From assembly GCA_919902505.1 (NCBI GenBank), contig CAKKRE010000010.1, positions 1 to 64,000 on the forward strand: a stretch of 64,000 bases of DNA. Direction: 5' to 3'. Below the pieces are notes generated by a model. That model did not search any database, was not told where the DNA came from, and worked only from the letters and a program-made list of their open reading frames with translations. The stretch is from Nitrospiraceae bacterium. GTDB lineage: Bacteria; Nitrospirota; Nitrospiria; Nitrospirales; Nitrospiraceae. A program made the position numbers and the translations under genes. Below, in pieces: positions 14,435-39,065 of the stretch (the first letter of the stretch is position 1; each line of letters opens with the position of its first letter).

Positions 14435-17061
<2,627 letters not shown>

Positions 17062-20066: not shown

Positions 20067-20282
20067 ATGTCTGGTGAATTCAGAAAAGTGCTCGGCTCTT
20101 TCACTTTGGTTTACGCGACCGCAACAAGCCTGGCTCTGACTCTCTCGATACCACTGTGTGCCAGGGATCGAGGATTGAGGAGGGCATCAGTGGGTCATGC
20201 TTCTCTAAGTCTCTTCTCCTTCATCCCTCAAGCGTGTGGCCGCCGTGATGGGTCATTTTCCAGCAGAGGCCTGTATGCGTGA
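20067..20282 (+). CDS. Possible small membrane protein
   Basis: 71 residues, ATG with AGGAG just upstream and one hydrophobic stretch (SFTLVYATATSLALTLSIPL). It overlaps the start of the regulator gene by 8 bases. The C-terminal half looks random, so this may be chance or a short leader ORF. Confidence 0.25.
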   Translation: MSGEFRKVLGSFTLVYATATSLALTLSIPLCARDRGLRRASVGHASLSLFSFIPQACGRRDGSFSSRGLYA

Positions 20283-21930
20283 GAGCAACACGCAAGTTGG
20301 AAGGGTGTTGCGTTCACCGCGCGAGCAAGTCAATACCCCGAGTCAAGTCGCGCGCGCTGTTCGGAACGCGACAAATTTCAACCTCAGTAAGAACCTCCTT
20401 CAACAAAATCCTTGTAATCGTGACGCGGACGCCGGGGTAGCCGATTCACAGTGGCAGGTGGTGGTATGGGATTCCCAAACTGCTCGGTTGAGACTCATTG
20501 ACCGTGTGGTTTCAGCTTGTGGTGCTCACACGTATCGGGTCGAGGAGTATGGCGATATTGCAAAAGCGCCATGTTTCTCGTGTTGCGCTGCAGTGGTTGC
20601 GTTAGGACCCTACCAGACAGACGAGACTCTTGCCTCCAAAGTTATTGGCCGTATGAAACAGGCCGGATTGACGGTCATCGCCCACGAGCAAGGCGCTCAC
20701 GCTTGGTCCGTGGGCCTGCGTTGCCGACTCTTATTGGACGGCGCATCGTGCGTGCTAGACAGCGGAGAATCTGGATTTTCGCAAGAGCTGCGGCGAATCA
20801 TGACGGAAGTCATTGCACACAAAACGCGCGCATCGGCTGAAAAAGAGCGCATCCATGAGATCATGACGACCTTCGGTATTGTGGGAGCAAGCGACGCGAT
20901 AGAGGCAGCATTTCGACAGGCGTTGAGGGTCAGCTCTTTCAGTGATCTGGCTGTGTTGATCACGGGGGAGTCGGGGACAGGGAAAGAACTGATGGCGCGC
21001 GCCATTCACCAACTTGACCCGAAACGCAGCGCTGGTCCTTTCGTAGCGATCAACTGTGGCGCGATCAGTTCCGGTCTTGCTGAAAGCGAGCTATTCGGTC
21101 ACAGCAGGGGAGCGTTTACGGGGGCAGAGAGGGATCGAAAGGGCCTCATTCGCGCGGCGGACGGGGGCGTGCTCTTCCTGGATGAGATTGGAGAGCTTGG
21201 AAGTGACATCCAGGCAAAGCTACTCCGGGTGCTTCAAGATCGCCGCGTCATGAGCGTCGGCACGGACCACGACGTGGGTGTGGATGTCCGAGTGATCGCA
21301 GCCACCAATCGCAATTTGGAACGGATGATGGAACAGGGCCGGTTCAGAGAAGACCTGTTCCATCGACTGAACATGCTCTCCGTCCAACTCCCGCCGCTAC
21401 GGGAGAGGGCGACCGATCTCAAGCCATTGATCGATAACATTCTTGGGAAATATCGATCGGCTGTAGCATCGGAACCTTCTGCAGTTGACTGCGACTTCAT
21501 TGAGGCGCTGGCTCAATTGGAACTTCCTGGTAACGTGAGACAACTCGAGAACATTGTCCGGCGCGCCGTACTCAATAAAATAGACGACATGCCTTTAGGC
21601 CTGAGCGATCTTCCTCCGGAGATTTGGCGGCAACTCTGCGCGAAGAAACAGGAGCACAACGGACAAGCCGGCATACAGTGCCGCGCAAATCCGACGGTCA
21701 CTCCACATGCACCGTTATCGTCCGGAGAGTTTATCGCGACCCTCTTCACAAGGATGGATTCGAAGGAATGGAACCTCTCGCATGCCGTCGAGCATTGTGA
21801 GCGATTGCTGGTAGAAGCGGCATTGCAACGTGCGCAGGGGAATCACTCCCAAGCCGCACGAGTCTTAGGAGTGACTCCCCGCACGTTGTACAACAAACTG
21901 AAAAAACCCCATCGCGATAGTGATCCTTGA
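20275..21930 (+). CDS. Sigma-54-dependent enhancer-binding regulator
   Basis: About 551 residues from ATG 20275 (AGAGG upstream). Residues ~60-180 form a receiver-like domain (WQVVVWDSQTARLRLIDRVV...) that lacks the usual phosphoacceptor Asp pattern, so it is probably not a normal two-component receiver. The AAA+ core has Walker A GESGTGKE (~230), GAFTGA (~279) for sigma-54 contact, Walker B GGVLFLDEIGEL and the FREDLFHRL region. A Fis-type HTH (SQAARVLGVTPRTLYNKLKK) closes it. The gene is directly upstream of palindromic sites and a sigma-54 promoter, so it very likely switches on the 22-38 kb cluster. The activating signal is not apparent. Confidence 0.9.
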   Translation: MRESNTQVGRVLRSPREQVNTPSQVARAVRNATNFNLSKNLLQQNPCNRDADAGVADSQWQVVVWDSQTARLRLIDRVVSACGAHTYRVEEYGDIAKAPCFSCCAAVVALGPYQTDETLASKVIGRMKQAGLTVIAHEQGAHAWSVGLRCRLLLDGASCVLDSGESGFSQELRRIMTEVIAHKTRASAEKERIHEIMTTFGIVGASDAIEAAFRQALRVSSFSDLAVLITGESGTGKELMARAIHQLDPKRSAGPFVAINCGAISSGLAESELFGHSRGAFTGAERDRKGLIRAADGGVLFLDEIGELGSDIQAKLLRVLQDRRVMSVGTDHDVGVDVRVIAATNRNLERMMEQGRFREDLFHRLNMLSVQLPPLRERATDLKPLIDNILGKYRSAVASEPSAVDCDFIEALAQLELPGNVRQLENIVRRAVLNKIDDMPLGLSDLPPEIWRQLCAKKQEHNGQAGIQCRANPTVTPHAPLSSGEFIATLFTRMDSKEWNLSHAVEHCERLLVEAALQRAQGNHSQAARVLGVTPRTLYNKLKKPHRDSDP

Positions 21931-22089: not shown

Positions 22090-22105
22090 TGGCACGTTCG
22101 CTGCA
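22090..22105 (+). promoter_or_regulatory. Sigma-54 promoter of the accessory cluster
   Basis: TGGCACG at 22090-22096, four bases, then CTGCA at 22101-22105. This differs from TGGCACG-N4-TTGCA at one base, and the GG-GC distance is exact. Transcription should start near 22116, just before the first gene of the cluster. Confidence 0.85.
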
Positions 22106-22416: not shown

Positions 22417-23532
22417 ATGAATCAAACAAGGAATGACACAAAAACGAGTGAAACGTGCCGGTGCAAGACCACAGAGGGTTTTGCTGAGGCCGGGAATCTC
22501 AGGTTGAATGGTGCGCACGTCTCGACCACGCAGAGGCACAGGTCGGCGCCGTTCACACAGCCGAAGATCTTTCTCGGTCATATTCCTAAAGGGTGGCGTG
22601 GAACGCAAAAGACGATTGAGCATGTACAGGCGCTGATTCGAGCCGGAGCGAAAGATTTTTATGTTCGTCAGAAGGCCATCGACATTCTGCTGGAGAAGCA
22701 AGTCAAGCCCAAGGACTACCTGGCCGAGATCAAAGCCCTCTTCGAATGGGTCCAGCAGCATGTCCGTTATACCAAGGATACCGTCCAGGTGGAGGTGCTC
22801 CATTCGGCGCGGCGTATGCTGGAGCTGCGGGCCGGCGATTGCGACGACATGGCCATTCTCCTGGGAGCAATGTTGGAGGCAATCGGTCACCCAGTGCGGC
22901 TGGTGCTCAGCGGGCCAAACCCACTCCGGCAGGACCTCTTCAGCCATATTTATTTGGAGGTGTTTCACAAAGGCCGCTGGATTCCGTTGGACGCCACGAT
23001 GCCTTACCCAATGGGCTGGGCGCCAAGCACAATGGTGAAAAAGATCATTGCTATCACAAGGAGGTCGAACATGATGGCCGAGGATATGGAACTGCAAGGC
23101 ATCGACGGAGTCGGGGCCGTACCGGACTGGCTAAGAGGACTGCTCCGGACGGTACGCACCGAGGCCGTACAGCCCAAAGACACGAGGATAAAGTCCCTAT
23201 GGGACCTACTAAGGCAACGGCAATTGCTGCGCCGAAGCCCATGGCTCACGACGGTATTGCGCCGTATCTGGAACCGTGGGCTGTCCGCTCGACCTCACCC
23301 GCGCACAGCGCGTCGGATAAAACAGAGGTTGCGTCGTTGGGGCATCTTGCCTCCGATTTCAGCGATTGCGGCGGCACATCGCCCGGCAGGCATGCGTCCT
23401 GTAACGCGAGCGCCGGTTCAGACGGTTCGACCTGTAACGCTCAAACCAGTCGCATCGCTACGGCCTGCGACTATGCAACCGGTGCGGCCTGTACAGATGA
23501 AGCCGGCAGGAACGAAAGCGGTAAGGAAATGA
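22417..23532 (+). CDS. Transglutaminase-like cysteine enzyme
   Basis: About 371 residues (ATG 22417; a GTG at 22381 is an alternative). The transglutaminase-like catalytic triad is visible: Cys142 in AGDCDDMAI, His177 in FSHIYLEVF, Asp192 in WIPLDATMP. Such folds act as proteases, amidases or cross-linkers. The C-terminal ~100 residues are Arg/Pro-rich with repeated RPV/KPV units, and the middle has MELQGIDGVG, a tag like those in the following proteins. There is no signal peptide. It overlaps the next gene by ATGA. It may process or cross-link the other cluster proteins; that is inference. Confidence 0.75.
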   Translation: MNQTRNDTKTSETCRCKTTEGFAEAGNLRLNGAHVSTTQRHRSAPFTQPKIFLGHIPKGWRGTQKTIEHVQALIRAGAKDFYVRQKAIDILLEKQVKPKDYLAEIKALFEWVQQHVRYTKDTVQVEVLHSARRMLELRAGDCDDMAILLGAMLEAIGHPVRLVLSGPNPLRQDLFSHIYLEVFHKGRWIPLDATMPYPMGWAPSTMVKKIIAITRRSNMMAEDMELQGIDGVGAVPDWLRGLLRTVRTEAVQPKDTRIKSLWDLLRQRQLLRRSPWLTTVLRRIWNRGLSARPHPRTARRIKQRLRRWGILPPISAIAAAHRPAGMRPVTRAPVQTVRPVTLKPVASLRPATMQPVRPVQMKPAGTKAVRK

Positions 23533-23959: not shown

Positions 23960-24247
23960 ATGAAAAATGATCAACAGCTCGGGTTGGATGAGTTGATGAT
24001 CGTGAACCCCGGTTCATCAGGTGCGGAAGTCATGTTCTTGGGCGAAGACGGAACCTTGTATCAGGTGCAAGGACTGGGTGAGGAAGCGGTGCCTCATGGG
24101 CCAGGACAGTTTGTCCTGGGTGAAGACGGCACGTTGTATCAGACGCAGGGCTTGAGTTCGAACGGCGTGGGTGAAGCGGAGGCTCAGGAGCTTGGCCGCT
24201 ACTTCCTCGGAGAGGACGGGACGCTTTATGAAGTCGTGACTAAATGA
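23960..24247 (+). CDS. Small protein with three FLGEDGTLYQVQG repeats
   Basis: 95 residues carrying three copies of the motif (F/V)LGEDGTLY(Q/E) at about residues 26-38, 51-64 and 81-92, each ending near (V/T)QGL except the last. Between them are short acidic, Gly-rich linkers. The same LYQ(Y)VQG motif recurs in the protein at 24997. No enzyme motif and no signal peptide. It looks like a repeat-built structural or tag protein. Confidence 0.65.
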   Translation: MKNDQQLGLDELMIVNPGSSGAEVMFLGEDGTLYQVQGLGEEAVPHGPGQFVLGEDGTLYQTQGLSSNGVGEAEAQELGRYFLGEDGTLYEVVTK

Positions 24248-24315: not shown

Positions 24316-24969
24316 ATGGCAAAAGTGCAAGGTATGAAAGAAAAACTTCATTCCCCTCTCTTCGATGCGTTCTTCGTAAAGGACGAAGAAAAGGCCGTAG
24401 GAGTCAAGAAAACGTTCATAGACTTTATGACAGATCCACGGGTGATTCGCTTCTTTGTGGACGTCCAGAATAAAACTAAGTTGGAAACCAACTTACAAGC
24501 AGCCGGGGTACTACCCAGCCTCAACACCTTCGAGGCACGGGCGCTGCGAGTGGTGGTCTCTAGTCTCCACCGTTTTGACCCTACAAGGGGGACTAAATCT
24601 GAAATTAAAGCCGAGCGTAACGAAGCCGAGATTTTAGCTGATCTTATCTACAACTCAGTAACCTCTCTGATTGTGGGCGAAAAAATCATGATCGAGATGC
24701 CCACCTTTTGGTTTCCATCCGGTGCGGGCGTAAGTCCGGGCTTTCTGACCGTTTCCAACCACGGTGAACCTGATCCGACCGCGACATTCCGTTTCGCCGA
24801 GCCTGTCTATATCGAGCCACAGCAGGCCTTCCGTGTAGAAATGGCGTTCCCGCAAGGGGTCCCAGGACAACAAGTAACGCCTCCAGATCCGAATAAGTTA
24901 GCGGGCGTGACGGGCCCGTTGCGTATTTGGGTCGTGCTGGATGGCTATCTGACCCGCGATGTCCAGTAA
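24316..24969 (+). CDS. Putative structural protein, sigma-54 cluster
   Basis: 217 residues with a strong AGGAGG site. The N-terminus is helical and charged (KVQGMKEKLHSPLFDAFF); from about residue 110 it is beta-rich: VGEKIMIEMPTFWFPSG, PTATFRFAEPVYIEPQQAFRV and a C-terminal PLRIWVVLDGYLTRDVQ. The last segment parallels LFIVLHGYKILGYG at the end of the 26122 protein. This pattern suggests a beta-sandwich structural protein like virion or shell subunits; no family match can be claimed. Confidence 0.6.
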   Translation: MAKVQGMKEKLHSPLFDAFFVKDEEKAVGVKKTFIDFMTDPRVIRFFVDVQNKTKLETNLQAAGVLPSLNTFEARALRVVVSSLHRFDPTRGTKSEIKAERNEAEILADLIYNSVTSLIVGEKIMIEMPTFWFPSGAGVSPGFLTVSNHGEPDPTATFRFAEPVYIEPQQAFRVEMAFPQGVPGQQVTPPDPNKLAGVTGPLRIWVVLDGYLTRDVQ

Positions 24970-24996: not shown

Positions 24997-26016
24997 ATGC
25001 AGTACCTAAGTGAAGATCAAGTTACTCAAATGATGGGCATCGGCTATCTCGGCGAAATGCGCCAAGGTCCGGACGGAAACCTCTATCAATATGTGCAGGG
25101 GGTGGATGGTCTGGGCAATCCCATCGGCGGCTTCTGGAGCAAATTCAAGCGTGGACTAAGGAAAGTTCATAGCTTGGCTCAACGAGGAGCGTCGTTTATC
25201 CCCGGCCCCTATGGAGCAGCAATAAGAGCTGGTCTCAAAATAGCGACCCCAATTCTGCAAAAAGCCGGCGTCGCTGGAAATGAGGGAATCGGTGCGCTCT
25301 ATGAGGCGCCCGACGGCAGCCTCTACCAGGTCCAGGGAATGGATGCGGATGAAGAACTTCGGGGCATTGGCGACGAGGCGATGACCCAGATGATGGGTGT
25401 CGGGTATCTCGGCGAAGTGCGTCAGGGCCCCGATGGGAATCTCTATCAATATGTACAAGGCGTGGATGGTCTGGGCAATCCCATCGGCGGCTTCTGGAGC
25501 AAACTCAAGCGTGGACTAAGGAAAGTTCATAGCTTGGCTCAACGAGGAGCGTCGTTTATCCCCGGCCCTTATGGAGCAGCGATAAGAGCTGGTCTCAAAA
25601 TAGCAACCCCAATTCTGCAAAAGGCCGGAGTCGCGGGTTACGAAGGGCTCGGCGCGCTCTACCAGGCGCCCGATGGCACGATGTACCAGCAGGTCCATGG
25701 ATTGAATGAAGGCGAAGAATTGCGAGGTCTGGCAGAGGACGAGGAATTGCGAGGTCTGGACGAAGATGAGGAGTTGCGTGGTCTCGATGAGGACGAAGAA
25801 CTCCGCGGCCTGGATGCGGAGGAGGAGCTACAGGGTTTTGCCGAGGATGATGAACTGCGTGGCGTTGGGGAAGACCAGGATATGCAAGGCATCGATGGCT
25901 ATGTGCGGCAGGACGGCATGAGCGGACTGGAAGCCTACGTGCCGCAGGAGCCACCGCAGACACGTTGGTACGTGGCACCAACCCAGGCGCCAGAGGTATG
26001 GAAATCATTATGGTAA
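24997..26016 (+). CDS. Duplicated amphipathic protein with acidic tail repeats
   Basis: 339 residues; the AGGAGG site fixes ATG 24997. Two 120-residue halves are near-identical. Each has GYLGE-RQGPDGNLYQYVQGVDGLGN, then GGFWSKLKRGLRKVHSLAQRG and a hydrophobic helix around SFIPGPYGAAIRAGLKIATP, and ends in an LYQ-type tag. After residue ~240 come seven 9-residue units of EELRGLDED type. A cationic amphipathic block followed by a hydrophobic one, neutralised by an acidic tail, is what a membrane-active or assembly protein might look like. No known family; no signal peptide. Confidence 0.65.
   Translation: MQYLSEDQVTQMMGIGYLGEMRQGPDGNLYQYVQGVDGLGNPIGGFWSKFKRGLRKVHSLAQRGASFIPGPYGAAIRAGLKIATPILQKAGVAGNEGIGALYEAPDGSLYQVQGMDADEELRGIGDEAMTQMMGVGYLGEVRQGPDGNLYQYVQGVDGLGNPIGGFWSKLKRGLRKVHSLAQRGASFIPGPYGAAIRAGLKIATPILQKAGVAGYEGLGALYQAPDGTMYQQVHGLNEGEELRGLAEDEELRGLDEDEELRGLDEDEELRGLDAEEELQGFAEDDELRGVGEDQDMQGIDGYVRQDGMSGLEAYVPQEPPQTRWYVAPTQAPEVWKSLW
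25021..25740 (+). repeat. 360-bp tandem duplication inside the 24997 gene
   Basis: Bases 25021-25380 and 25381-25740 are near-identical over most of their length, strongest from about 25100 to 25270 and 25460 to 25630. The 360-base period keeps the frame (120 residues). Identity at synonymous positions points to a recent duplication or gene conversion. Confidence 0.85.
25714..25902 (+). repeat. 27-bp coding repeats, acidic EELRGLDED
   Basis: Seven units of 27 bases encode variants of EELRGLDED: A, D and G substitutions accumulate toward the 3' end (EELQGFAED, DELRGVGED, QDMQGIDGY). The codons vary while the peptide is kept in the middle copies, which suggests selection on the peptide. Confidence 0.85.
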
Positions 26017-26121: not shown

Positions 26122-26790
26122 ATGCGATTAGGACTGAGTCAAGATCAGCAACAGGTCCCCGCGCGTTCAGCACCGGACGTTATGCCGCCGCCGACCGCTG
26201 CGCCCACGACCAAAGAGATTCCCTACGACTATGTGGCCAAGTTCAAACTTCAAGGGAAACCCGGCAATCGTGTGCAGGATGTGATCAACATCAGCATCGA
26301 AGGCGCCTTTGTGGCTGTGGCCATTGGCTATAGTTTCATCCCGGCCAAGTTGCCGGTTCTGCCACCACCAGGTTCGATACTCTTGACATCGCCCCCGCCT
26401 ACTGGTGAAGGCGTGGGCTGGCTGTTGGCCAATGCCATTCTGCCTGTCGTGGAAGATCCACGCATGCTCGCGCAATGCTTGCTCGTGCGACTCTGCGGGA
26501 TCGATTTCAAATACAGCATCATCGATAGCGGGAGCGGCCGCGAGTTGCAGAATCAGCCGATCCACAACATCGCCGGGCTGGGTGAGGCAACCGGTGATCG
26601 GCCTTTCCGTCCCCTGGCGAAACCCATGCTGTTCATGCCCCGCTCGACTATCCGTGTCGAAGTTGAAGAAATCTCGGAAGGGCCGATTTATGGTTACGAG
26701 GACTCAGTGACCAAACAGCGTGTTGGCGCAGAACTGTTCATCGTGCTGCACGGCTATAAAATTCTTGGCTATGGGACGGCGCTATCATGA
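26122..26790 (+). CDS. Putative beta-sandwich structural protein
   Basis: 222 residues with AGGAGG upstream. A Pro/Thr-rich N-terminus (to ~30) is followed by beta strands: DYVAKFKLQGKPGNRVQDV, GAFVAVAIGYSFIP, the FKYSIIDSGSGRELQNQP turn, and FRPLAKPMLFMPRSTIRVEV. It ends with AELFIVLHGYKILGYG, like the 24316 protein. Capsid-like single-domain beta-sandwich subunits share this look, but the assignment is structural intuition only. It overlaps the next gene by ATGA. Confidence 0.6.
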   Translation: MRLGLSQDQQQVPARSAPDVMPPPTAAPTTKEIPYDYVAKFKLQGKPGNRVQDVINISIEGAFVAVAIGYSFIPAKLPVLPPPGSILLTSPPPTGEGVGWLLANAILPVVEDPRMLAQCLLVRLCGIDFKYSIIDSGSGRELQNQPIHNIAGLGEATGDRPFRPLAKPMLFMPRSTIRVEVEEISEGPIYGYEDSVTKQRVGAELFIVLHGYKILGYGTALS

Positions 26791-27299
26791 CCATGAACCA
26801 GGCGTGCGATGTCCATCGAGACACCGGTTATTCCAACGTCTGCCAGATTTGTAGCGTTCCGCTGGATGCCGGGTATTTCGATGTCGCCGGCATCAAAGCG
26901 GCACCGGGGAATGTGGGTGAAGAAGTCGAGGTCGCGCGCTACGAGCTGAACCCTCAGTATTGCGGCACGATGTTGTATTTCACGCAATACGCGGAAGAAC
27001 TTAACACAAAGAGACAAGTGCTCTCGAACACGCCCGGTTACGAATGGTTGATCCTCTGCAACAACCAGCCGCGGGCGCCCTACCTGCCCACAGACCTGAT
27101 CTTGAACCCTTGGGGCTACAACGCCCTTCCAATCTACCTGAGATTGGAAGAGGGCTGCACGTTGAGGTTCGTGGTCAGAAAGGTGACCCCTCCGGTAGGT
27201 GGGGGAGAGGTGAGGTTGAACTTATCTCAAGTAGGAGGCAGGCTGCTGGGCCGCACCTGGTACAACACCATCTATGGAGGAACGCCGAATCAGCGTTAA
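26787..27299 (+). CDS. Putative beta-rich structural protein, coupled
   Basis: 170 residues, coupled to the 26122 gene by ATGA. Strand-rich: YELNPQYCGTMLYFTQYAEE, GYEWLILCNNQPRAPYLP, LPIYLRLEEGCTLRFVVRK and a conserved-looking end GGRLLGRTWYN. Cys17 and Cys20 in NVCQIC may form a pair. With the previous gene it could form a two-subunit shell, the way some tailless viruses use two single jelly-roll proteins; this is a hypothesis. Confidence 0.55.
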   Translation: MTMNQACDVHRDTGYSNVCQICSVPLDAGYFDVAGIKAAPGNVGEEVEVARYELNPQYCGTMLYFTQYAEELNTKRQVLSNTPGYEWLILCNNQPRAPYLPTDLILNPWGYNALPIYLRLEEGCTLRFVVRKVTPPVGGGEVRLNLSQVGGRLLGRTWYNTIYGGTPNQR

Positions 27300-27442: not shown

Positions 27443-28666
27443 ATGTACATCTATAATCGCCAATATGCCACGACGAAAAGTGTCCCGCCAGAGAGGCGCA
27501 GCAGTAGCTTTACCGTTATCAATGGGCTATCGGCGCCACCGACCTTACATCCTCGCTGTAACAGTCTCCTGCTGAAGGTTCCGGGCGCCTATGAACAACT
27601 CGAAGAAGCGGTCATGAAGTGGATTGCGACTTGTGTCCAATCCAGGACCAAAGTTCGCGGAGTTCCTGTTCATCGGGAACGCAAGCTGGTCATCGGCAAT
27701 CCATCTTTGCTGGACATCTGGAATAAGGTTCTACGTTTTCGCGTGGGGCAGGAAGTGACGATTAAGGCCGAGTATGGCTGGCGGAAGGGCGGGGTCGAGT
27801 CCATTCGCTTCACAACAACCGCGTTGCCGCCGCCTCCCCCGAAGCCCAGTCCCCCACCGCCGCCCGTGACGCGGAGTGTCGGCCAATGGCGGGAATTAGC
27901 CGATCAGAAATTCATCCACTACCAGCGGCAGATACCAGGTCGTCTGACGGATGAGGACGCAAAGGAGCTCAATCGTCGGATTACAGCTTCTTACGCGAAG
28001 ATGTACCTCAGTCGTCCTTCCGTCTTCAAATGGGCTGGCATGGCAGCCTTCGCTTCGGCCGAAGTCGGGAGAGGGATGCAACAGGCTTGGCAACTCGGCT
28101 TCGGGGACTGGGGAATGAGTGCGGGGGGAACTCTGTTGGTCTGGGTCGGTGGATTGGTCAAAACAGGAGAGTCGGTTGGGCCGATGCTTGGCAAGAAACT
28201 CTTCTGGGCGCTCTCGGGCGGAAATCGTTTTGTCTGGTGGGACATCTTCTGGCAGCACCTGGCCTACCAGGAACAAGGAATTGCGGCCCTTGTGGCCGCA
28301 CACAAAGCCGGTGAGTTACCTCAGGCCAATCTACTGGCCTGGCAGCGAATTGATGCCGGCCATCAGAAAGGCGACGTGGCTCAGATTTGGCAAGGAAACA
28401 GCGAACTCTTGAGGTACGAACAGGAATTCGTGCTTCAGGCTCAGGTATACGACCGGAGCCGGGACATCTGGCCCGTGATTTCGGACGATGTCCCCTCTCC
28501 AATCCCCGGGCACGGCGTCAAATTCACCAGCTATGTTTCAGGCGGTGATATCGGCGACTTCAAGCATCGCTGGAAATGGATCGAGGAAAGCATGCTGCCA
28601 GCATGGAAGTCGCTCGAAACAAACGAGCCAGCAAAGGTTCGGTCGCTGCTACTCGCTCTAACGTGA
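27443..28666 (+). CDS. Cluster protein with MYIY start and Pro hinge
   Basis: 407 residues starting MYIYNRQYATT. Residues ~1-125 form one domain; a Pro-rich hinge (PPPPPKPSPPPPPVTRS, ~130-150) leads to a helical C-terminal domain. That domain has NRFVWWDIFWQHLAYQEQGIAA, WQRIDAG and IWQGNSELLRYEQEFVLQ. The C-terminal part resembles uncharacterised proteins I remember vaguely (QGN...LLRYEQ), but I cannot name the family. No signal peptide, so a secreted role would need another route. Confidence 0.6.
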   Translation: MYIYNRQYATTKSVPPERRSSSFTVINGLSAPPTLHPRCNSLLLKVPGAYEQLEEAVMKWIATCVQSRTKVRGVPVHRERKLVIGNPSLLDIWNKVLRFRVGQEVTIKAEYGWRKGGVESIRFTTTALPPPPPKPSPPPPPVTRSVGQWRELADQKFIHYQRQIPGRLTDEDAKELNRRITASYAKMYLSRPSVFKWAGMAAFASAEVGRGMQQAWQLGFGDWGMSAGGTLLVWVGGLVKTGESVGPMLGKKLFWALSGGNRFVWWDIFWQHLAYQEQGIAALVAAHKAGELPQANLLAWQRIDAGHQKGDVAQIWQGNSELLRYEQEFVLQAQVYDRSRDIWPVISDDVPSPIPGHGVKFTSYVSGGDIGDFKHRWKWIEESMLPAWKSLETNEPAKVRSLLLALT

Positions 28667-28727
28667 AATTCCGGAGGCGGCCCAATCTCATCCACCAAGG
28701 GTGCAAGTCCATAGCGGCTGGGCACAA

Positions 28728-29036
28728 ATGTCGAATAATACCGTGCAATTGTTCGGGCCTTGGACGCGCGGAGAGGGTCATGAGGACGATGCAGATCAAG
28801 ACACCGAATCCCTGCCAGCGGCAGCCCCTGGCGGACCAGCAGTGGGTGCTCCAGGCTCATCAGGATCATGGAACCTAGGAAAGCGCTTTGTCAAAGAGAA
28901 GTCGCTTCTGGAGCTATCCAAACGAGTCACCGATAGTCCATGGTATGTCGAAGAAGTAATCAACGCGCTTGGCCAACTTTCTCTGGGTTATTGCGAACGT
29001 GTTTCAACACAAAAACCCGAAAGGAGCTTGAGATGA
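28728..29036 (+). CDS. Small protein, VQLFGPWTRGEG start motif
   Basis: 102 residues from ATG 28728 (MSNNTVQLFGPWTRGEG...). The motif matches residues 20-31 of the 53-residue protein at 27274. A Pro/Ala/Gly linker (~35-55) leads to a helical end (KEKSLLELSKRVTDSPWYVEEV). The shared motif may be a docking or export signal. No ribosome site is clear, so translation may depend on coupling. Confidence 0.5.
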   Translation: MSNNTVQLFGPWTRGEGHEDDADQDTESLPAAAPGGPAVGAPGSSGSWNLGKRFVKEKSLLELSKRVTDSPWYVEEVINALGQLSLGYCERVSTQKPERSLR

Positions 29037-29294
29037 AGGAGAAAGGTAGGATCAAACGACCTTAAGCAACCGCTCAAGGAAGCGAGGCGAAAAGTGGGTG
29101 CTGGACTACTGACCCCTTAGCTTCTGATGTCCAATGGGACTGGAACCGGGGCTGGGATAGCGCATCGTGAATTTTCAGCGGAGCTCCGACCGGAAGAAAT
29201 GGGGGCAAAATGAATGTTGGACCGACCGGCTGACGAAAGAGCCCCTGTGGGGATCTAATTGATTGCTGTGAATCGAAGCGGAAGGGGGGCCAGC

Positions 29295-30023
29295 ATGTAC
29301 CTGAGAACAGCAGAAGGATTAGGGCAAGCCCCAATGCGATACGGCCCTTTTGCCGGAACACTGGGTGATAACACGCTCCCGGATGGAATTCGGGAGTTTC
29401 TGAATGAACTGCGCAACCACAAAGACTTAAAAAGACTGCTGTTGACCGTTACCTTTCACCCCAAGCCACTGCAAACCTGGCTAACATTTGGTCCAAGGAA
29501 ACAAGCAATTCTAGATTTGCTTTTAGTCAACAACATGCTTGAAGCACCTGTTGTTTTCTTTGATCACCTGAGGCGCATCAGCACCGACCTCCAGAAGAAA
29601 GATGCCGGCTTTAGGCAACAGATCGACGCCGAGTTGCAGCTTCGGAACGCGATGATCAAGGCTGCCGGAAAAGTCGGAATAGACCGTGACAAGATGAAAC
29701 CCTTCTTGCTCGAACCCTTGTTTACGCCAGAGGTAGAAGACTATTTCCTGCCTCCATTGGCCTTGAGTTTCGCGAATAAGATGTTGCCGCCGAGGCTGGT
29801 CCAACGGATCAAGAACAGCGCAATACCTGAGGCGCACCTTGTCGGGTTGGGAAGATTTCTCCGTAGGTACGGCGAGGTATTGCAAAGTAAGGATGCTGTG
29901 TTCAAACGAGTCGTAGAGCAGGAACGCCACAAGAGGCAACAAGTACAGCAGGAACAAAAAGAAAAGGCAAAACAAGCGGAAGAGGAACGAAAGCGAAAAG
30001 AGCAAAGGCGAAGACGAAAATAG
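29295..30023 (+). CDS. Cluster protein, paralogue A1 (MYLRTAEGLGQ)
   Basis: 242 residues; GGAAGGGGGG precedes ATG 29295. Its paralogue at 30919 shares LLLTVxxHPKP, the FLLEPLFTPEV/FLYDPLLLPMF block, MLPxxLxQxIxNS, EAHLxxLGxxLRR and SKDAVFKR-like residues. The C-terminus is a long Lys/Glu/Gln coil (RHKRQQVQQEQKEKAKQAEE...). Likely helical; no enzyme motif. Tandem paralogues separated by two small genes suggest local duplication. Confidence 0.65.
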   Translation: MYLRTAEGLGQAPMRYGPFAGTLGDNTLPDGIREFLNELRNHKDLKRLLLTVTFHPKPLQTWLTFGPRKQAILDLLLVNNMLEAPVVFFDHLRRISTDLQKKDAGFRQQIDAELQLRNAMIKAAGKVGIDRDKMKPFLLEPLFTPEVEDYFLPPLALSFANKMLPPRLVQRIKNSAIPEAHLVGLGRFLRRYGEVLQSKDAVFKRVVEQERHKRQQVQQEQKEKAKQAEEERKRKEQRRRRK

Positions 30024-30088
30024 CATAACGGGAGCTTGTCAGAGTGGAAGGGCCGGGAAGCGATTGCTCAAGCGAAGGAGTATCCGCC

Positions 30089-30427
30089 ATGTACATGCCC
30101 ACAAGTCTAGGACAACCCCAAGCTCAAACGGATTGCTCCGGGTGGGAAAGCGACCCGCAGAGTTTTGTCAGAGTGATTGCCAAACACCATATCCGCACCG
30201 AGCTAGGGCGGGCTCTGAGTCCTACGCGTGGGCCCTATAAAGTGACCGAGAAGACGTGGGGGGTGAGATTTCCCGACGACATCGTCGTGTATGTGCTCCT
30301 CGCCAAGGTGCCGGATTTTGTCGTCGCTGCCCGCTGGTACCCGAAGCCGGCGGGGCAATCACGTTTCTACACCTACTCCTGTATGAGCGACGGCCAGGTG
30401 GTTTTCACTGAGCGTGCGAAGCCGTAG
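30089..30427 (+). CDS. Small cluster protein (MYMPTSLGQ)
   Basis: 112 residues from ATG 30089, which has AAGGAG 8 bases upstream; a GTG/ATG at 30044 is less well supported. Beta-rich, with GVRFPDDIVVYVLLAKVPDFVVAARW and a final YSCMSDGQVVFTERA. It begins with the shared MYMxTxLGQ pattern. No family recognised. Confidence 0.6.
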   Translation: MYMPTSLGQPQAQTDCSGWESDPQSFVRVIAKHHIRTELGRALSPTRGPYKVTEKTWGVRFPDDIVVYVLLAKVPDFVVAARWYPKPAGQSRFYTYSCMSDGQVVFTERAKP

Positions 30428-30460
30428 ATAGGCCCAGAATCTTAGGCGGAGGACAAGGTC

Positions 30461-30835
30461 ATGTATCTTCAAACTGATTTGGGAGACGGAGTGTTCAAAC
30501 CCAGATCGAGATATAAGCAACCTCGGCTGTATCTCGTCAGTGTGCACTGGACTTTTGAAGTTCCATTCAGGAAAGACTTTGAGGCCTTTCGTCAGGAACT
30601 CAGCAAGACGATCAGGAAACTTGTGACGGCTGAGGCCGATAAGAAAGAAATCGACAGCCTCCTGCTCGAAGCTAAGCATGTGGTAACAGCGCTCAAGGAC
30701 GTGCATGGTCAGCTGCTGAAACGAAAGTCCCCCAGACTCAAAGAATCCGATCCCGTTGGGATTAATGCTACGATTTACTTCAAGAAAAATGATTACACGG
30801 ATGTCAGTGGGATTTCTGTGTATGACCGTAATTAA
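30461..30835 (+). CDS. Small cluster protein (MYLQTDLGDG)
   Basis: 124 residues; ribosome site GGCGGAGGA. The start MYLQTDLGDG again follows the cluster pattern. The body is alpha/beta with a central helix (AEADKKEIDSLLLEAKHVVTALKD) and a final beta segment (NATIYFKKNDYTD). Unknown function. Confidence 0.6.
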   Translation: MYLQTDLGDGVFKPRSRYKQPRLYLVSVHWTFEVPFRKDFEAFRQELSKTIRKLVTAEADKKEIDSLLLEAKHVVTALKDVHGQLLKRKSPRLKESDPVGINATIYFKKNDYTDVSGISVYDRN

Positions 30836-30918
30836 ACGTTGACCCGGCAATTAAGCGGGTGGGAACAGCAGTAGAACGAAGTTTTCTGTTGCTTAGTCGT
30901 CCAGCTCCAGGAGTCGTT

Positions 30919-31617
30919 GTGTACATCAATACAGGTGCAGAATTTGGACAGATTTCCACACCGCACAGTTTTGTTGCCGGCATGCTCGGTGAAGATGTCA
31001 ATTCAAAAAAAATAATCAATGACATTCTCAATCAAGTCCGCTTGCAGTCTCAAAGTTTCAAGAAACTCCTCTTGACTGTCGCCTTGCACCCAAAGCCCGA
31101 TGCCAGCGTTATTTGGGAGAAGCAGACGTTTCCATTTGGTAAAGAGACTCGATATCTCGTCGATGAGATCCTGATGTCGGAGCTATCAACGGCGTTCATC
31201 TTATCCGTGCTGAAGCGGTACAGCGTTGCCAGCTTCAGCCGGGAAATCAAAGATGGGGAGCATTTGCAAATTAGGATGGTGAACGCCACTCAGAATTTGT
31301 CGAAAACGTTGCTCCAGCCATTTTTATACGACCCATTATTACTACCGATGTTTGGCGGGCAACTGCCCTACAAGGAACTTTCCAGGTTAGCCCGACATTT
31401 CGCGCAACATATGTTGCCGGGGGATCTTGCCCAACAGATCATGAATAGCGATGCCTCCGAGGCGCACCTTGCCTATCTCGGGAGTTATCTTCGCAGGCAC
31501 GCCGAGGCGCTGGAAAAGAAGGATCCCCACTTCAAAAGGCTAGCAGCGATAGCACGCAAGTGGCAGCGAGAACTGGAACAAAGGAGAAAACAGCGGGGAA
31601 CAAAGAAAACCCCATGA
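30919..31617 (+). CDS. Cluster protein, paralogue A2
   Basis: About 232 residues. The GTG at 30919 has AGGAG 5 bases upstream and gives a start (MYINTGAEFGQ) matching the cluster pattern; a longer form from GTG 30859 exists but lacks a site. Paralogous to the 29295 protein as described there, and it also ends in a Lys/Arg/Glu-rich coil. A short upstream motif (GCTGACGAAAG) recurs before the next gene and before 29295. Confidence 0.65.
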   Translation: MYINTGAEFGQISTPHSFVAGMLGEDVNSKKIINDILNQVRLQSQSFKKLLLTVALHPKPDASVIWEKQTFPFGKETRYLVDEILMSELSTAFILSVLKRYSVASFSREIKDGEHLQIRMVNATQNLSKTLLQPFLYDPLLLPMFGGQLPYKELSRLARHFAQHMLPGDLAQQIMNSDASEAHLAYLGSYLRRHAEALEKKDPHFKRLAAIARKWQRELEQRRKQRGTKKTP

Positions 31618-31703
31618 TTCGGGTCAGAGTCAATTATGAACAGGAAAATGCGGAAATGGATTCCGATTAATGCTGGGCCGATTAGCTGACGAAAGTGAGC
31701 CGT

Positions 31704-33326
31704 ATGTATATTTATGATCGGAGATTGTTACGTTCTCCCGCTCAATCCAAGCAACAGCCCATCACCCCACTGCCTGTCCATGGCAACGCCTATTACCCAG
31801 ACCAAGTTGTGGGCGAATTCTTTGGACGCGGATGGACCGACCACGGGTACGCTTGGGTACATGAAGGGTTGGGGCAATCGATTACTGATGAACTGTCCAA
31901 GAAGCTCAAGCACCTTTCATTTTTGTCCCACTTTGTAGAAAGGAATGGCAAGGATGTATGGCTTAAGCCGAGTGTGATGGATCCCGGGATCTATGACGGA
32001 CCGAAAAGGTACAGGCTTCCCATCGGTGGCACGCTCCAAGGCTTCCTAGAGGGAGTTCTGATACGTAACAAGCAGTTCGATCACATTAAAGTCGCCCTGG
32101 TGGATCTGACGAAGGATATCTGCAAACCGGAATTTGCCGGATTCAATCACGAAGCGCCGGTCTCCGCCGCAAGCGTTCCTAAGATCGCAGCCATGCTGGC
32201 AGCCTATCAACTTCGTCACGATCTCCGGGCCCTGTTGAAAAAGCAGCATAAGGGGGCCAGAGATACCAAGGAGCTCTTTAAACTTGTGCGTCAGGACTGG
32301 GCCGATACCCAGCATGACCATGGAGGCAGGTCGGCGGTTTTCACGAGTGGCGTCTCGCTTCGTGGAAAGCTTGTCCTCGTGAATGGCAGTAAGGTCTCTA
32401 TCAGTGAGCCGAAGGCTCCGCGATTAGAGGACGTTTTCGCCGATGTAAAAGGGGTCCCAATTAAAATCAAGTTCAAGAGTACGGGGGAAAACAAGGCACG
32501 ACTGGAGATCATCATCGATGAATTCAACCGTACAAAGGAAAAAAAAGAGCTAAAGCTGGCAGAAAATGAACTGGCGAAAGCAAAAGACGAGTTAACGCGC
32601 AAGGCAGCACAACGAAAACTTGCGGAGGCTAAAACCAAACTTGCCGTGGCAATACGGACGAAGCGTCCAGAGGCAAGGCGAAAACTCGACGCGCTGGGCT
32701 TCTTGGAGCGAATGCGGGTGATGATCGGCGGTCTGACGCCCGCCTCAAATCATGCGACTTCCACGATCGTGCGCGACGTGGGCTTTCTTTACATCGCGTC
32801 GACACTGCTCCAGTCCGGACTGTACGACACCAATCGGAAGGGGGGACTCTGGCTCGGTGGTGACTATGGCAACATTGGCTGGCGGGTAGGCCTTAGCGGT
32901 GAAAAAGATTTCGCGACAGCAACCGCCGGATCTCTCGCGGCATTCCTGTCGCTTCTCGTACAGGACAAATTGGTGAGCCCATCGGCCGGTTCCGGCATGC
33001 GTCGGCTGATGCAAATAGAGCCCCTTAACCCGACGCATCCCACCACCCAAAGCATATTTGAGGTAGGTCTTTCGGCACACCGGCTGAAGAAGGTGCTCGC
33101 AAAAATCGGTTTCATTAAAAACGGTTTCAGCCACGAGTGTGCGTACATCGAGCGCGATGTCGTTTGCGGGAAGGACAAGAAATGGACACTGCCCCACCGT
33201 TATATCGCGGTGTGCCTCGGGGCAAAAAGTAAGCGTGAGCTGAAGCAGTTAATCGATGAACTCGACACATGCATTCTCGCCAACAACCGGACAACGCCTT
33301 GTGTCGAAGCATCGAGGCGTGCGTGA
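31704..33326 (+). CDS. Beta-lactamase/transpeptidase-fold protein
   Basis: 540 residues from ATG 31704 (MYIYDRRLLRS). Class A beta-lactamase/PBP-like motifs: Ser157-Val-Pro-Lys160 (SxxK), Ser348-Asn-His (SxN-like) and Lys467-Ile-Gly (KxG). Between the first two motifs lies an insertion of roughly 130 residues with a charged coiled coil (AENELAKAKDELTRKAAQRK). No signal peptide is seen although its likely substrate is periplasmic peptidoglycan. It may be a binding or processing domain rather than a resistance enzyme. The neighbouring M23 peptidase also points to peptidoglycan. Confidence 0.6.
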   Translation: MYIYDRRLLRSPAQSKQQPITPLPVHGNAYYPDQVVGEFFGRGWTDHGYAWVHEGLGQSITDELSKKLKHLSFLSHFVERNGKDVWLKPSVMDPGIYDGPKRYRLPIGGTLQGFLEGVLIRNKQFDHIKVALVDLTKDICKPEFAGFNHEAPVSAASVPKIAAMLAAYQLRHDLRALLKKQHKGARDTKELFKLVRQDWADTQHDHGGRSAVFTSGVSLRGKLVLVNGSKVSISEPKAPRLEDVFADVKGVPIKIKFKSTGENKARLEIIIDEFNRTKEKKELKLAENELAKAKDELTRKAAQRKLAEAKTKLAVAIRTKRPEARRKLDALGFLERMRVMIGGLTPASNHATSTIVRDVGFLYIASTLLQSGLYDTNRKGGLWLGGDYGNIGWRVGLSGEKDFATATAGSLAAFLSLLVQDKLVSPSAGSGMRRLMQIEPLNPTHPTTQSIFEVGLSAHRLKKVLAKIGFIKNGFSHECAYIERDVVCGKDKKWTLPHRYIAVCLGAKSKRELKQLIDELDTCILANNRTTPCVEASRRA

Positions 33327-33404: not shown

Positions 33405-33935
33405 ATGCCAACTATTTCTATCACCTCAAATGACGGCAAGCTCAACTCCGCATCTGCGGTTCTGGAAGTGAGTGCCACAAACCAGGAGTATAACCAACCA
33501 GTGTTGCGTATCAAACAAGCCGGTACCAGCGGAGGCGCGGCTTCGATCCGGATCGATGATCCGAATCCGGACATCGAGTTCGTCGAGACTGGCCTCACGG
33601 GTCCCGATCCCGGCGCCGGGAAGTTCGAGATTGCCGTTCAGGCGGACCAACTCCAGATCAATGGCCGCAACGCCGATGTTGGCCCTAACAAGGGCTTCGA
33701 CACCATTGTCGTATTTACCCGACCGGCGGCAGGTGGCAATATCGGAATCGGATTCCCTGAGGCCAAAGACTACAAAAAGTTTGGAGGAGGACAGGGTGTC
33801 ATCGTGATCGCGAATGCCTCTGTTGCCCCTTCCCCATCGAAGAAGATTGCCGACGTTGGGATTTTGTATGTCCAGGACGGGGCGCTGATGTATATGAGCT
33901 CGAATGGAAACGTGAAGGAGATCGCGCCTGCCTAG
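33405..33935 (+). CDS. Spike-like beta protein, copy 1
   Basis: 176 residues with AGGAGG upstream. Repeated short beta strands (MPTISITSNDGKLNSASAVLEV, PVLRIKQAGTSGGAASIRID, DPNPDIEFVETG, GGNIGIGFPEA...) end in YMSSNGNVKEIAPA. This is typical of trimeric spike or tail-fibre tip proteins. It is paralogous to the 36231 protein, with only scattered differences. The stop codon is the first three bases of an inverted-repeat element. Likely surface exposed; no signal peptide. Confidence 0.65.
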   Translation: MPTISITSNDGKLNSASAVLEVSATNQEYNQPVLRIKQAGTSGGAASIRIDDPNPDIEFVETGLTGPDPGAGKFEIAVQADQLQINGRNADVGPNKGFDTIVVFTRPAAGGNIGIGFPEAKDYKKFGGGQGVIVIANASVAPSPSKKIADVGILYVQDGALMYMSSNGNVKEIAPA

Positions 33936-34110: not shown

Positions 34111-34141
34111 TGCCCCGTAGCCTTCAGAAAGGAAAACGACA

Positions 34142-34540
34142 ATGAGCCGCAAAACAAAAGACGCTCGCCAAAAAGTATCGTCTCGTGCTCGACGATCTCC
34201 TCCCTTCATCTGGCCCCTGGGCAAAAGTCCAAAAACACCAGACGAGATGAATACGTCCTATGGTCCGCGTATCGACGCGGATCGCTGGGACTTCCAGGAC
34301 GGCATCGATCTGCCCGCTCCCGTCGGTACGCCGGTCCATGCGATGGCAAACGGCACGGTAGATCGCGCCGGGCCGGTGTCCGTCACAATTCCCCACAATA
34401 GATGTGCGATGAAGACATTTTGTCGAAGCTTGATTGGGCGACGCAGACTGAGAAGCGCTGGAGTTGGTACGACAGGAATCGCTTGCAGAGTTCGGGTATG
34501 CATCAACACGACAGAAGCCATGTGGAACTTGGCTGTTTGA
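34142..34540 (+). pseudogene. Truncated M23 peptidase copy
   Basis: The first ~77 codons are close to those of the M23 gene at 36795 (RKTKDARQK, MNTSYGPRIDADRWDF), ending near VDRAGP at ~34375. After this the frame reads unrelated sequence. The zinc ligand His of FHDGID is Gln here. The catalytic half is missing, so this is a broken copy, probably the left half of a segmental duplication. Confidence 0.7.
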
Positions 34541-34563
34541 AGTAGCTCACGGAGGTCAGTGTT

Positions 34564-35305: not shown

Positions 35306-35395
35306 GGCGGAGTTTCGAGAGATCGCTCGTCACGATTCAATAACTGGTACATCCCGTTCCAACAGATCTACGACATCGCCACATGAGGTCTTTGC

Positions 35396-36151: not shown

Positions 36152-36230
36152 GTATCGGTCTTGAAAAAGGTAGGAAGAGAAATGGGATCGGAGTTAATTG
36201 TTTCGCAACACACCAACTTACAGGAGAAAC

Positions 36231-36764
36231 ATGCTGCCTACTATTTCTATCACATCACACGACGGCAAGCTTGACGCTCCCTCTGCGGTCCTGGATGTGA
36301 GTGCCACAAACCCGGAATACAATCAGCCTGTGCTGCGTATTAAACAAGCCGGTACCAGCGGGGGCGCGGCCTCAATCAGGATCGATGACCCGAATCCGGA
36401 CATCGAGTTTGTCGAAACGGGCCTCACGAGCCCTGATCCAGGCGCCGGGAAGTTCGAGATTGCCGTTCAGGCGGACAGGTTTCAGATCAATGGTCGCAAC
36501 GCCGATGTTGGCCCTAACAAGGGCTTCGAAAACATTGTCGTATTTACCCGACTGGCGGCAGGTGGCAACATCGGAATCGGATTTCCAGAGGCCAAAGACT
36601 ACAAAAAGTTTGGAGGAGGACAGGGTGTCATCGTGATCGCGAATGCCTCTGTTGCCCCTTCCCCATCGAAGAAGATTGCCGGCGCTAGAATTTTGTATTT
36701 TGAGGACGGCGCGCTCAAGTATATGGGCTCGAATGGAACGGTGACGGAGATCGCGCCGGCGTAG
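36231..36764 (+). CDS. Spike-like beta protein, copy 2
   Basis: 177 residues with AGGAG before ATG 36231. It matches the 33405 protein closely over its length, differing at scattered sites (DQLQING versus DRFQING, LYVQDG versus LYFEDG). Followed after 30 bases by the intact M23 peptidase gene, as in the first copy. No signal peptide. Confidence 0.65.
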   Translation: MLPTISITSHDGKLDAPSAVLDVSATNPEYNQPVLRIKQAGTSGGAASIRIDDPNPDIEFVETGLTSPDPGAGKFEIAVQADRFQINGRNADVGPNKGFENIVVFTRLAAGGNIGIGFPEAKDYKKFGGGQGVIVIANASVAPSPSKKIAGARILYFEDGALKYMGSNGTVTEIAPA

Positions 36765-36794: not shown

Positions 36795-38363
36795 ATGAGC
36801 CGCAAAACAAAAGACGCTCGCCAAAAAGCATCTTCTAGCGCCCGAAGAACCGGCTTCTTCATCTGGCCCCTCGGCAAGAGCCCCACCACGCCGGACGAGA
36901 TGAATACGTCCTACGGTCCGCGTATCGACGCGGACCGCTGGGACTTCCACGACGGCATCGATTTGCCCGCTCCCGTCGGTACACTGGTCCATGCCATGGC
37001 GGCCGGCTCGGTGCATCGCGCTGGACCGGCGGATGAAGGTTTTGGCTCAACGCATGTCATTCTCAAAGTCTGCGATCCATCTGACGGCCAGGATGATCTG
37101 TTCCTTGTCTATCTCCATCTCGACAGCATCGCAGATGGTGTGATCCCAGGCGCACAGGTGCATCAGGGTGACGTAATCGGCGCGGTGGGTCAGGAAGACG
37201 CGACCTACCCCCATCTGCATTTCGAGTTCAGGAAAGGCGGGCCCCAACAACATCGCAGCGTCCACCCTCTGCACTATCTGCCCTACCTCAATACGGCGAA
37301 CTTCAGGCAGCCTCGTTTGGATCGCTGCAATTTTTACCGCGACGACGGCGAGAAACGGGTGGTGAGGCTTCGCTTTGCCGTCCGGAACCGCCGGGAAGGC
37401 GATGTACAGGCTGTTCATGTGGAGTTGACGGGCGACGGTGTCGCAACCCGGGAACTTCACGTCGACTTCGATGACCGAGAGACCATCAATAGCGATAAAG
37501 GAGACGAGCACGCATTCAAGAACGGAATCGCCGTTGAGGGCTACCAGAAGTCCAATCTCAAGGGCGAAGGGTTGAACAATCTGCACTACGGCGTGCTGGT
37601 CGAGGATATTACTTCCGAATACGATTCTGTGAAACTTCAAATTCTAGACGTGAAGAACGAGAAGCCGAAAAGTGCTGAGTTCCCTCTGCCCACACTCGAA
37701 GACGGCAAGAACCCCATCAACAGTCGCGAGGGTTTTGAAGACCAGACATTTCCGCCGCCAGCTTGGGAATTGCATCTCTTGCCGGGCAATGTCTGCCGGC
37801 CGGATCCAGCCGCCGCTCTCACAGGCACACGGGGCCTACTCTGTCAGGACCTCCAGAGTGTGCAAGGGACCGCGATCCGCGCGGGGCTGCGCTTTGCCTT
37901 GCCCGTCAGCCGCTCGCCTGTCCGCCCTATGTCCTGGCGCTTGAAGGCGGATATCAAGCCTGTGGAACTGGAAATGGAAGAAGGGCTGGTGATTCATCCT
38001 TTGGCTTTCTTGATAGGCGACGATTTGGTGGCCGCCGCCTGTCTGCAGAAGGTCAGGAACGATGAATTCGTTACGGGTGTTCTCATTCGAACCGCGGACG
38101 GAATGTTTAGGGAAAGAATTGACATAGTCGAGGGAAAAATTGTTCGAAATGTCCCGGCCAGGTGGGAGCTTGATCTGATCAGGTTAGGCACCCGGCAAAC
38201 GATTGCCGTAGTACGAATCAATAAAAACGTGATTGCCCGGATCAACGGCGACACCACGAGCGTCGAGCCCGATACAGGGTGCGTCGGGATCCTGCATAAG
38301 CACAGTGGGTTACAGATAACCCTGCACCTCGATCAATTGCTCCTGACGGAAGCGCCGCGGTAG
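36795..38363 (+). CDS. M23 (LytM-type) metallopeptidase with long C-terminus
   Basis: 522 residues. Zinc ligands of the LytM/lysostaphin family are visible: His52 and Asp56 in FHDGID, then His108 in YLHLD and His140-x-His142 in PHLHFEF. These enzymes cut peptidoglycan cross-bridges. The C-terminal ~350 residues are beta-rich domains (CNFYRDDGEK..., GTAIRAGLRFALP...) of no known family. No signal peptide is present, so it is probably delivered in or on a particle or released by lysis. A partial copy lies at 34142. Confidence 0.8.
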   Translation: MSRKTKDARQKASSSARRTGFFIWPLGKSPTTPDEMNTSYGPRIDADRWDFHDGIDLPAPVGTLVHAMAAGSVHRAGPADEGFGSTHVILKVCDPSDGQDDLFLVYLHLDSIADGVIPGAQVHQGDVIGAVGQEDATYPHLHFEFRKGGPQQHRSVHPLHYLPYLNTANFRQPRLDRCNFYRDDGEKRVVRLRFAVRNRREGDVQAVHVELTGDGVATRELHVDFDDRETINSDKGDEHAFKNGIAVEGYQKSNLKGEGLNNLHYGVLVEDITSEYDSVKLQILDVKNEKPKSAEFPLPTLEDGKNPINSREGFEDQTFPPPAWELHLLPGNVCRPDPAAALTGTRGLLCQDLQSVQGTAIRAGLRFALPVSRSPVRPMSWRLKADIKPVELEMEEGLVIHPLAFLIGDDLVAAACLQKVRNDEFVTGVLIRTADGMFRERIDIVEGKIVRNVPARWELDLIRLGTRQTIAVVRINKNVIARINGDTTSVEPDTGCVGILHKHSGLQITLHLDQLLLTEAPR

Positions 38364-39057: not shown

Positions 39058-39065
39058 CCCATCCG

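Follow-up and report, generated by a model that had tools for sequence, protein, structure and literature searches.

A shared N-terminal tag on diverse putative cargo proteins encoded beside a putatively virus-derived structural module in a Nitrospiraceae bacterium

Why do neighbouring proteins that differ in almost everything else begin with the same few residues? The question is raised by a 64-kb stretch of a Nitrospiraceae bacterium genome (contig CAKKRE010000010.1), here called the window, in which one gene cluster encodes six proteins that open with MY(I/L/M). Proteins are named by their start coordinate in the window. The original prediction proposed that this common start is an export or docking signal. 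We find it to be a well-supported N-terminal sorting or docking element, and we propose that interchangeable enzymes are loaded through it onto an extracellular assembly or particle of viral origin encoded just upstream, a reading to which we give a probability of roughly 0.55.

The shared start and its confinement to one cluster

The six tagged proteins, and a gene remnant among them, are given below with lengths in amino acids (aa); G277 is a genome from another genus of the same family, and labels beginning with L denote further loci.

27443..28666, + strand: tagged protein MYIYNRQYATT; 407 aa, with a DUF2515 domain (Pfam PF10720, 1.8e-20).
28701..29036, + strand: untagged; a family-1 cargo gene reduced to a remnant that lacks its N-terminus, 52% identical to a portion of protein 36106 in G277.
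29295..30023, + strand: tagged protein MYLRTAEGLGQ, family 1; 242 aa; three G277 relatives, 3/3 tagged.
30089..30427, + strand: tagged protein MYMPTSLGQ; 112 aa; G277 orthologue MYMSVGLGQ, 74% identity past residue 25.
30461..30835, + strand: tagged protein MYLQTDLGDG; 124 aa; G277 relatives MYLETGLGQ.
30919..31617, + strand: tagged protein MYINTGAEFGQ, family 1, GTG start; 232 aa; G277 orthologue with ATG, 81% identity past residue 25.
31704..33326, + strand: tagged protein MYIYDRRLLRS, a beta-lactamase/transpeptidase-like serine hydrolase; 540 aa; Beta-lactamase2 at 1.4e-4, just under the gathering score; tagged relatives at L012, L014 and L015.

All six starts read as first quoted and lie in open reading frames (ORFs). 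Good Shine-Dalgarno sequences precede four of them (GGAAGGGGGG at 29295, GAAGGAG at 30089, GCGGAGG at 30461 and CAGGAG at 30919), and the ribosome-binding sites at 27443 and 31704 are weaker. The expectation that the tag would decide start codons, including the GTG at 30919, was borne out by the 80%-identical G277 orthologue (37657), which opens ATG TAT ATA AAT. The proteins had also been called otherwise mostly unrelated, which holds for five independent families but not for 29295 and 30919, which are paralogues (33% identity); this pair aside, the tagged proteins of the window have nothing in common past the start. None of 119 flanking ORFs (ATG start, at least 120 aa) begins with MY[ILVMF] and only two carry Tyr at position 2, and the chance of Tyr second in 5/5 independent families is about 1e-9. 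Two sub-types occur in the window, MY[LIM]xTx..GLGQ (29295, 30089, 30461 and 30919) and MYIY[DN]R (27443 and 31704); in 31704 an EGLGQ is found later, at residues 54-58.

Across eight loci, four of them Nitrospira-type (the window included) and four from Methylococcales, 34 proteins in 17 families carry the tag at their N-terminus, with the consensus MY[ILV]xTxxGLGQxP and spacers that can also be shorter or longer. The bodies of the 17 families gave no BLASTP match to one another. Literal MY[ILVMF] opens 30 of the 34 proteins, the other four reading MFVF, MTVY, MSMY and MSYLY, and in the MYIY sub-type (27443, 31704, L014_14037 and L022_8488) a GL[GAS]-like element comes later or is absent. When all coding-strand ORFs of at least 100 aa from the 26787 family up to the following conserved gene were enumerated, irrespective of their starts, the only untagged entries were two gene remnants (window 28701-29036; G277 38386-39240) and one ORF overlapping a cargo gene. 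The second remnant, on G277 contig C17, is an ORF in cargo position with a MYLPTTLGQ start (38403) in another frame and is probably a degenerate cargo gene. A search of eight whole genomes for MY-phi-xxxx-GLG returned eight matches (control, 0). Six of them belong to the cluster, and the remaining two, which lie elsewhere, correspond to an internal Met codon and to an ORF of 18 aa; no tagged gene was found outside the cluster in these genomes. A ninth, divergent locus from a gammaproteobacterial genome (G1254) was found with no other query than the 24316 family, and it was chosen while the sequence of its cargo region was still unread. Directly after its 26122 homologue it has MYLYAREGLGQIPETLQP, preceded by GAAGGAGG, with the tag MYLYAREGLGQIP at the predicted place.

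Between families, the BLOSUM score is +0.40 per residue over residues 2-11 but drops to about -1.0 once residue 14 is reached, and no later segment comes near the likeness seen over the first ~11 residues. The comparison suggested with the original prediction, of the first 15 residues with the rest, thus has a mixed outcome, since within orthologue pairs the tag may be more, equally or less conserved than the body: 29295 and G277 39418 agree at 10/11 tag positions vs 36% of the body, and L022_8488 and L023_9296 at 3/11 vs 71%. The tag is a short linear motif of conserved type, without being a conserved domain.

A common start of this kind might be a by-product of cassette duplication or recombination, or an aid to translation initiation, and have no sorting role. 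Paralogy and gene remnants indicate turnover, and some tags are near-identical in DNA, such as those of 29295 and G277 39418. However, the same tag residues are written in different codons across unrelated families and phyla (Tyr as TAC or TAT; Leu as CTG, CTT, CTA or TTA; Gly as GGA, GGG, GGT or GGC), which argues for selection on the peptide. Conservation also ends within about 12 residues, and variants with inserted residues (MTVYIFASEGLGQSP, MSYLYFRQERGLGF) retain Y and GLG. We consider the by-product explanation very improbable, the least probable of those weighed here. There is good support for the shared start as a selected N-terminal element for sorting or docking: it is found on all intact cargo-position genes at nine loci from Nitrospira-type and gammaproteobacterial genomes, and on 17 unrelated bodies. 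The original prediction is supported in part: the export or docking role itself is putative, and the likely meaning of the tag comes from the virus-related structural genes, which that prediction did not include.

The upstream module and its viral-type relative

What could such a tag dock onto? The loci share a constant gene order: a transglutaminase-like protein, a small LYQ-repeat protein (recognised in most loci), the 24316 family, the 24997 scaffold, the 26122 family and the 26787 family, followed by the variable genes that bear the tag. The window carries the following members, compared here with a viral-type element of genome G925.

22444..23532, + strand: transglutaminase-like protein; Pfam Transglut_core 3e-13, with the triad C, H, D invariant; hhalign E 6e-19 to the transglutaminase of the G925 element.
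23960..24247, + strand: small repeat protein with FLGEDGTLYQVQGLGE repeats, conserved in G277, L012, L023 and L024; its short N-terminal motif, ELMIVNP, resembles QLMLVNP of a G925 174-aa protein.
24316..24969, + strand: core structural protein, probably capsid-type; 77-88% identity across loci; hhalign E 4e-4 to a G925 202-aa protein.
24997..26016, + strand: scaffold with a duplicated YLGEVRQGPDGNLYQYVQGVDGLGNP repeat, basic/amphipathic helices and acidic DEDEELRGL repeats, as seen in the alignment.
26122..26790, + strand: core structural protein, jelly-roll-like beta-sandwich in an AlphaFold2 model; E 1.7e-9 to a G925 136-aa protein.
26787..27299, + strand: conserved core protein, present in all complete loci.

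Apart from the transglutaminase, the core proteins had no match in Pfam, PHROGs or NCBIfam. A remote match of the 26122 family led to the G925 element (contig C85, locus L027), a terminally redundant, circular-type unit of 12,532 bp (1467/1468 identical). It encodes an integrase, an endolysin, a series of small proteins and a relative of the Rep-like proteins found in tailless vibriophages. Positions 4652-13612 of L027 span the integrase, Rep-like, transglutaminase-like and beta-sandwich proteins and the endolysin. A major capsid protein and a packaging ATPase were not recognised in the element, which possibly represents an undescribed virus group and was not found in viral collections.

Each cluster family profile was compared by hhalign with all G925 element proteins, and reversed sequences served as control (best reversed E 0.035). 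Three families have one clear partner each: the transglutaminase (E 6e-19), 26122 (1.7e-9, the 136-aa protein) and 24316 (4e-4, the 202-aa protein), the last being the weakest of the three and a moderate match at a probability of 32-35%. The three partners lie in one module of the element. Matches of 24997 and the LYQ protein to G925 proteins extend over 9-14 residues and are suggestive only. The AlphaFold2 model of 26122 (predicted TM-score 0.56) is a beta-sandwich, with VIA Z scores of 8.8 to the satellite panicum mosaic virus capsid and 8.3 to SPV1. Because Foldseek returned weak matches of several kinds (viral capsids, GOLD domains and PHM), we call the fold jelly-roll-like only, and the protein a putative capsid protein at most. 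Neither 24316 and 26122 nor the transglutaminase, 202-aa and 136-aa proteins of the G925 element had a match when searched against phages, plasmids and IMG/VR. This single element suggests that the cluster would have arisen from a virus, rather than the reverse. Charybdis elements were also considered and judged different, being ~4.6 kb, marine and archaeal, without a transglutaminase.

The scaffold also offers a link to the tag itself. The 24997 repeats read DGNLYQYVQGVDGLGNP, and the repeat LYQYVQGVDGLGNP resembles the tag. A regular expression covering both, written after tag and repeat had been seen, matched 18 places in seven scaffold proteins (mean of shuffles 0.2; 0 in 40,479 background residues), although the repeats are homologous, so that the 18 places amount to two or three independent events.

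Cargo enzymes and the docking interpretation

Recognisable cargo bodies are DUF2515 (27443), beta-lactamase/transpeptidase-like hydrolases (31704 and relatives), an N-acetylmuramoyl-L-alanine amidase, a C39-like peptidase and a peptidoglycan-binding protein with a HEALH motif. An M35-like metallopeptidase fell just under its gathering score and OmpA-like domains under theirs, and L014_13104 has the look of an alpha/beta hydrolase, by eye only. The family-1 members (29295 and 30919) are not among the recognisable bodies. The cargo matched common enzyme or binding domains only, and plasmid searches with two cargo proteins gave no match. From these recognisable domains, several cargo proteins are predicted to act on or bind cell envelopes or proteins. 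No tagged protein has a Sec-like N-terminus (maximum 12-residue hydropathy over residues 1-45, 1.36), which sets them apart from Sec-secreted enzymes and their N-terminal hydrophobic signal.

We hypothesize that the shared start is an N-terminal docking, or cargo-loading, peptide that marks these enzymes as cargo. The receiving structure would be built from the transglutaminase-like protein, the LYQYVQGVDGLGNP-repeat scaffold, the 24316 protein and the 26122 beta-sandwich protein, which appear related to a module of a tailless, jelly-roll-type viral element. The cargo N-termini would imitate the scaffold repeat, with docking probably where one repeat packs against its neighbours. Once loaded, the enzymes (amidase, beta-lactamase-like, C39 and M35-like peptidases, peptidoglycan-binding proteins) would leave the cell without Sec signals and most likely attack the envelope of other cells.

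Alternatively, the tag may be a signal for some secretion or surface-display route of its own, with no docking on the neighbouring proteins, the structural module being merely linked. Envelope-active enzymes without Sec signals do need an exit, and the tag is short and N-terminal, like many export signals. Against this, the cluster showed neither a secretion ATPase nor a channel, the tagged genes directly follow the structural module at nine loci in two phylum-level lineages, and the tag resembles the cluster's own scaffold repeat. We regard a separate secretion route as unlikely.

Known systems offer partial parallels to cargo docking. Photorhabdus virulence cassettes load their payloads by N-terminal peptides (PMC11495950), much as we propose that the cargo N-termini dock in place of the scaffold repeat. 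Extracellular contractile injection systems in general resemble the cluster in having a virus-derived structural operon followed by diverse effector genes, and their N-terminal payload signals may have a counterpart in its shared tag and predicted loading. However, Pfam, PHROGs and NCBIfam scans recognised no sheath, tube, baseplate or AAA loader in the cluster, whose core is beta-sandwich or capsid-like rather than tail-like and whose tag is ~12 residues long and of other sequence. Encapsulins likewise combine a virus-related shell with short peptide tags on cargo enzymes. Their shell has the HK97 fold and their cargo peptides are mostly C-terminal. In the cluster, by contrast, no encapsulin/HK97 family match was found, the 26122 model is a beta-sandwich (the fold model of 24316 being unusable) and the cargo is envelope-active rather than metabolic. 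Tailless prophages and viruses of the Tectiliviricetes (Vinavirales, NO16-like) have in common with the G925 element a Rep-like protein, beta-sandwich capsid-type proteins and an endolysin; a double jelly-roll capsid protein and an FtsK-like ATPase were not recognised in that element or the cluster, where divergent proteins could be missed, and no structural protein was matched by tblastn. The envelope-attacking activities, modular turnover, paralogues and remnants recall polymorphic toxin and type VI secretion system (T6SS) effector repertoires (amidases, peptidases, lipases), but the cluster has no T6SS or Rhs/CdiA carrier, and its 12-residue N-terminus is common to separate proteins.

Several observations weigh against docking onto a virus-derived particle. 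The MYIY sub-type lacks an early GLGQ, and the distal M23 peptidase and 33405-type proteins are untagged. On the structural side, the 24316 match to the G925 202-aa protein is moderate and its AlphaFold2 model too poor for fold use, while the 26122 fold matches are at a level where a common beta-sandwich can appear. The resemblance of tag to scaffold repeat was scored with a pattern designed afterwards on few independent events. Descent from a virus would rest on one G925-type element with a putative virion, with none in IMG/VR or the phage collection. Finally, the particle and the docking are themselves predictions, as are transcription of the operon, release and the target.

Regulation, distribution and distal genes

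Two features at the head of the cluster bear on its control.

20236..21930, + strand: sigma54-dependent activator at the cluster edge, start codon uncertain; Pfam Sigma54_activat 1e-64.
22090..22105, + strand: sigma54 -24/-12 type promoter TGGCACGTTCGCTGCA at the operon head; sole match of two consensus regular expressions on either strand of the 64-kb window.

An activator of the 20236 type borders the cluster upstream in G277, L012 and L014, and downstream in L015 and L022-L024 (Methylococcales). The sigma54-type element is found in 7/8 loci: L009, L012 and L014 have it at the same place, and in L015, L022 and L024 the first gene follows it by 77-80 bp. It was not found in L023. Upstream of the first gene, L015 (6208-6292), L022 (2162-2246, reverse complement) and L023 (2942-3025) have two CATAAxxxTTATG palindromes 71-72 bp apart that occur nowhere else in these 20-kb loci, and L024 has one related copy. 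The paired palindromes are likely activator sites. In the loci read, the cluster interval contained nothing recognisable as an integrase, a Rep protein or a packaging ATPase. Because recognised integration, replication and packaging genes are lacking and the cluster has a sigma54-type promoter and its own activator, it looks like a domesticated, host-controlled operon.

These same features speak to the idea that the operon is a live or satellite virus whose tagged proteins are ordinary virion enzymes, the tag being a virion-incorporation signal. Viruses do carry lysis enzymes in their virions, and the structural module is homologous to an element that bears an integrase and a Rep-like protein. 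The lack of recognised integrase, replication and packaging genes, the sigma54-type promoter and activator, the many varied enzymes per locus and the lack of matches in viral and phage collections all tell against it, and we judge a live virus decidedly improbable.

A fuller version of the docking proposal, which we advance tentatively, is that a tailless jelly-roll virus was domesticated into a sigma54-switched, modular enzyme-delivery particle whose tag mimics the scaffold repeat. The transglutaminase-like protein may then process or cross-link tag and scaffold via the recurrent Gln of LYQ and GLGQ. Among the known virus-derived devices by which bacteria deliver proteins, most are made from either phage tails (as in tailocins, T6SS and contractile injection systems) or HK97 shells (as in encapsulins and gene transfer agents). 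A term-based literature search found no description of this operon in open papers; if confirmed, it would be a separate kind of virus-derived cargo system. A cargo device made from a tailless jelly-roll module, with a 12-residue tag common to unrelated enzymes, would represent a line of viral domestication that is new. Sequence would then suffice to predict what cargo other uncharacterised operons carry, and the tag itself could serve as a small, portable loading signal. The idea is directly testable in cultivable methanotrophs.

The window belongs to a 4.24-Mb genome whose relatives include Nitrospira metagenome-assembled genomes (MAGs). Searches with 27443, 29295 and 26122 found no second cluster in same-genus genomes; a 26122 match in G010 (E 9e-4) was discarded, as it covers 79 residues only and has stop codons inside. 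The G277 contig with the cluster is also that of L013 (Nitrospira sp. S1bin.12). When species representatives were scanned, with two peptide patterns only, the cluster turned up in a further two Nitrospira MAGs and in Methylomonas methanica (L012, L014 and L015), and three further cluster genomes were found among 251 of the order of Methylomonas methanica. The core proteins of the window and Methylomonas are 70-77% identical in hosts of different phyla, which suggests that the cluster moved by horizontal transfer.

In Nitrospira-type loci, the variable genes are followed by a 33405-type protein, in which we presume a likeness to phage fibre C-termini, and an M23 peptidase. The window has these distal genes:

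33405..33935, + strand: first copy of a conserved distal protein, 88% identical both to 36198-36764 and to G277.
34142..34376, + strand: second copy of the M23 gene, present as a 5' fragment only; 85% identity to the M23 protein of G277 over its first 78 aa.
36198..36764, + strand: second copy of the 33405-type protein; 88% identity to the first copy.
36795..38363, + strand: untagged M23 peptidase, conserved in Nitrospira loci; Pfam Peptidase_M23 2.5e-19; syntenic in G277, L012 and L014.

The interval 33405-36764 is thus a duplicated module, with two 33405-type proteins and an M23 5' fragment near the intact M23 gene; L014 has a similar duplication (15262-16922). Between the module copies of the window lies a TIR-domain protein (35396-36151) with weak similarity to ThsB- and SAVED-TIR-type defence models, which was not seen in the other loci read. 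PADLOC matched this protein, whereas the six scanned proteins of the core and cargo gave no match. An integrase-like ORF (MARRGEGVYQRGTVWYLDF...) lies at 62697-63959, at the edge of the window and distant from the cluster.

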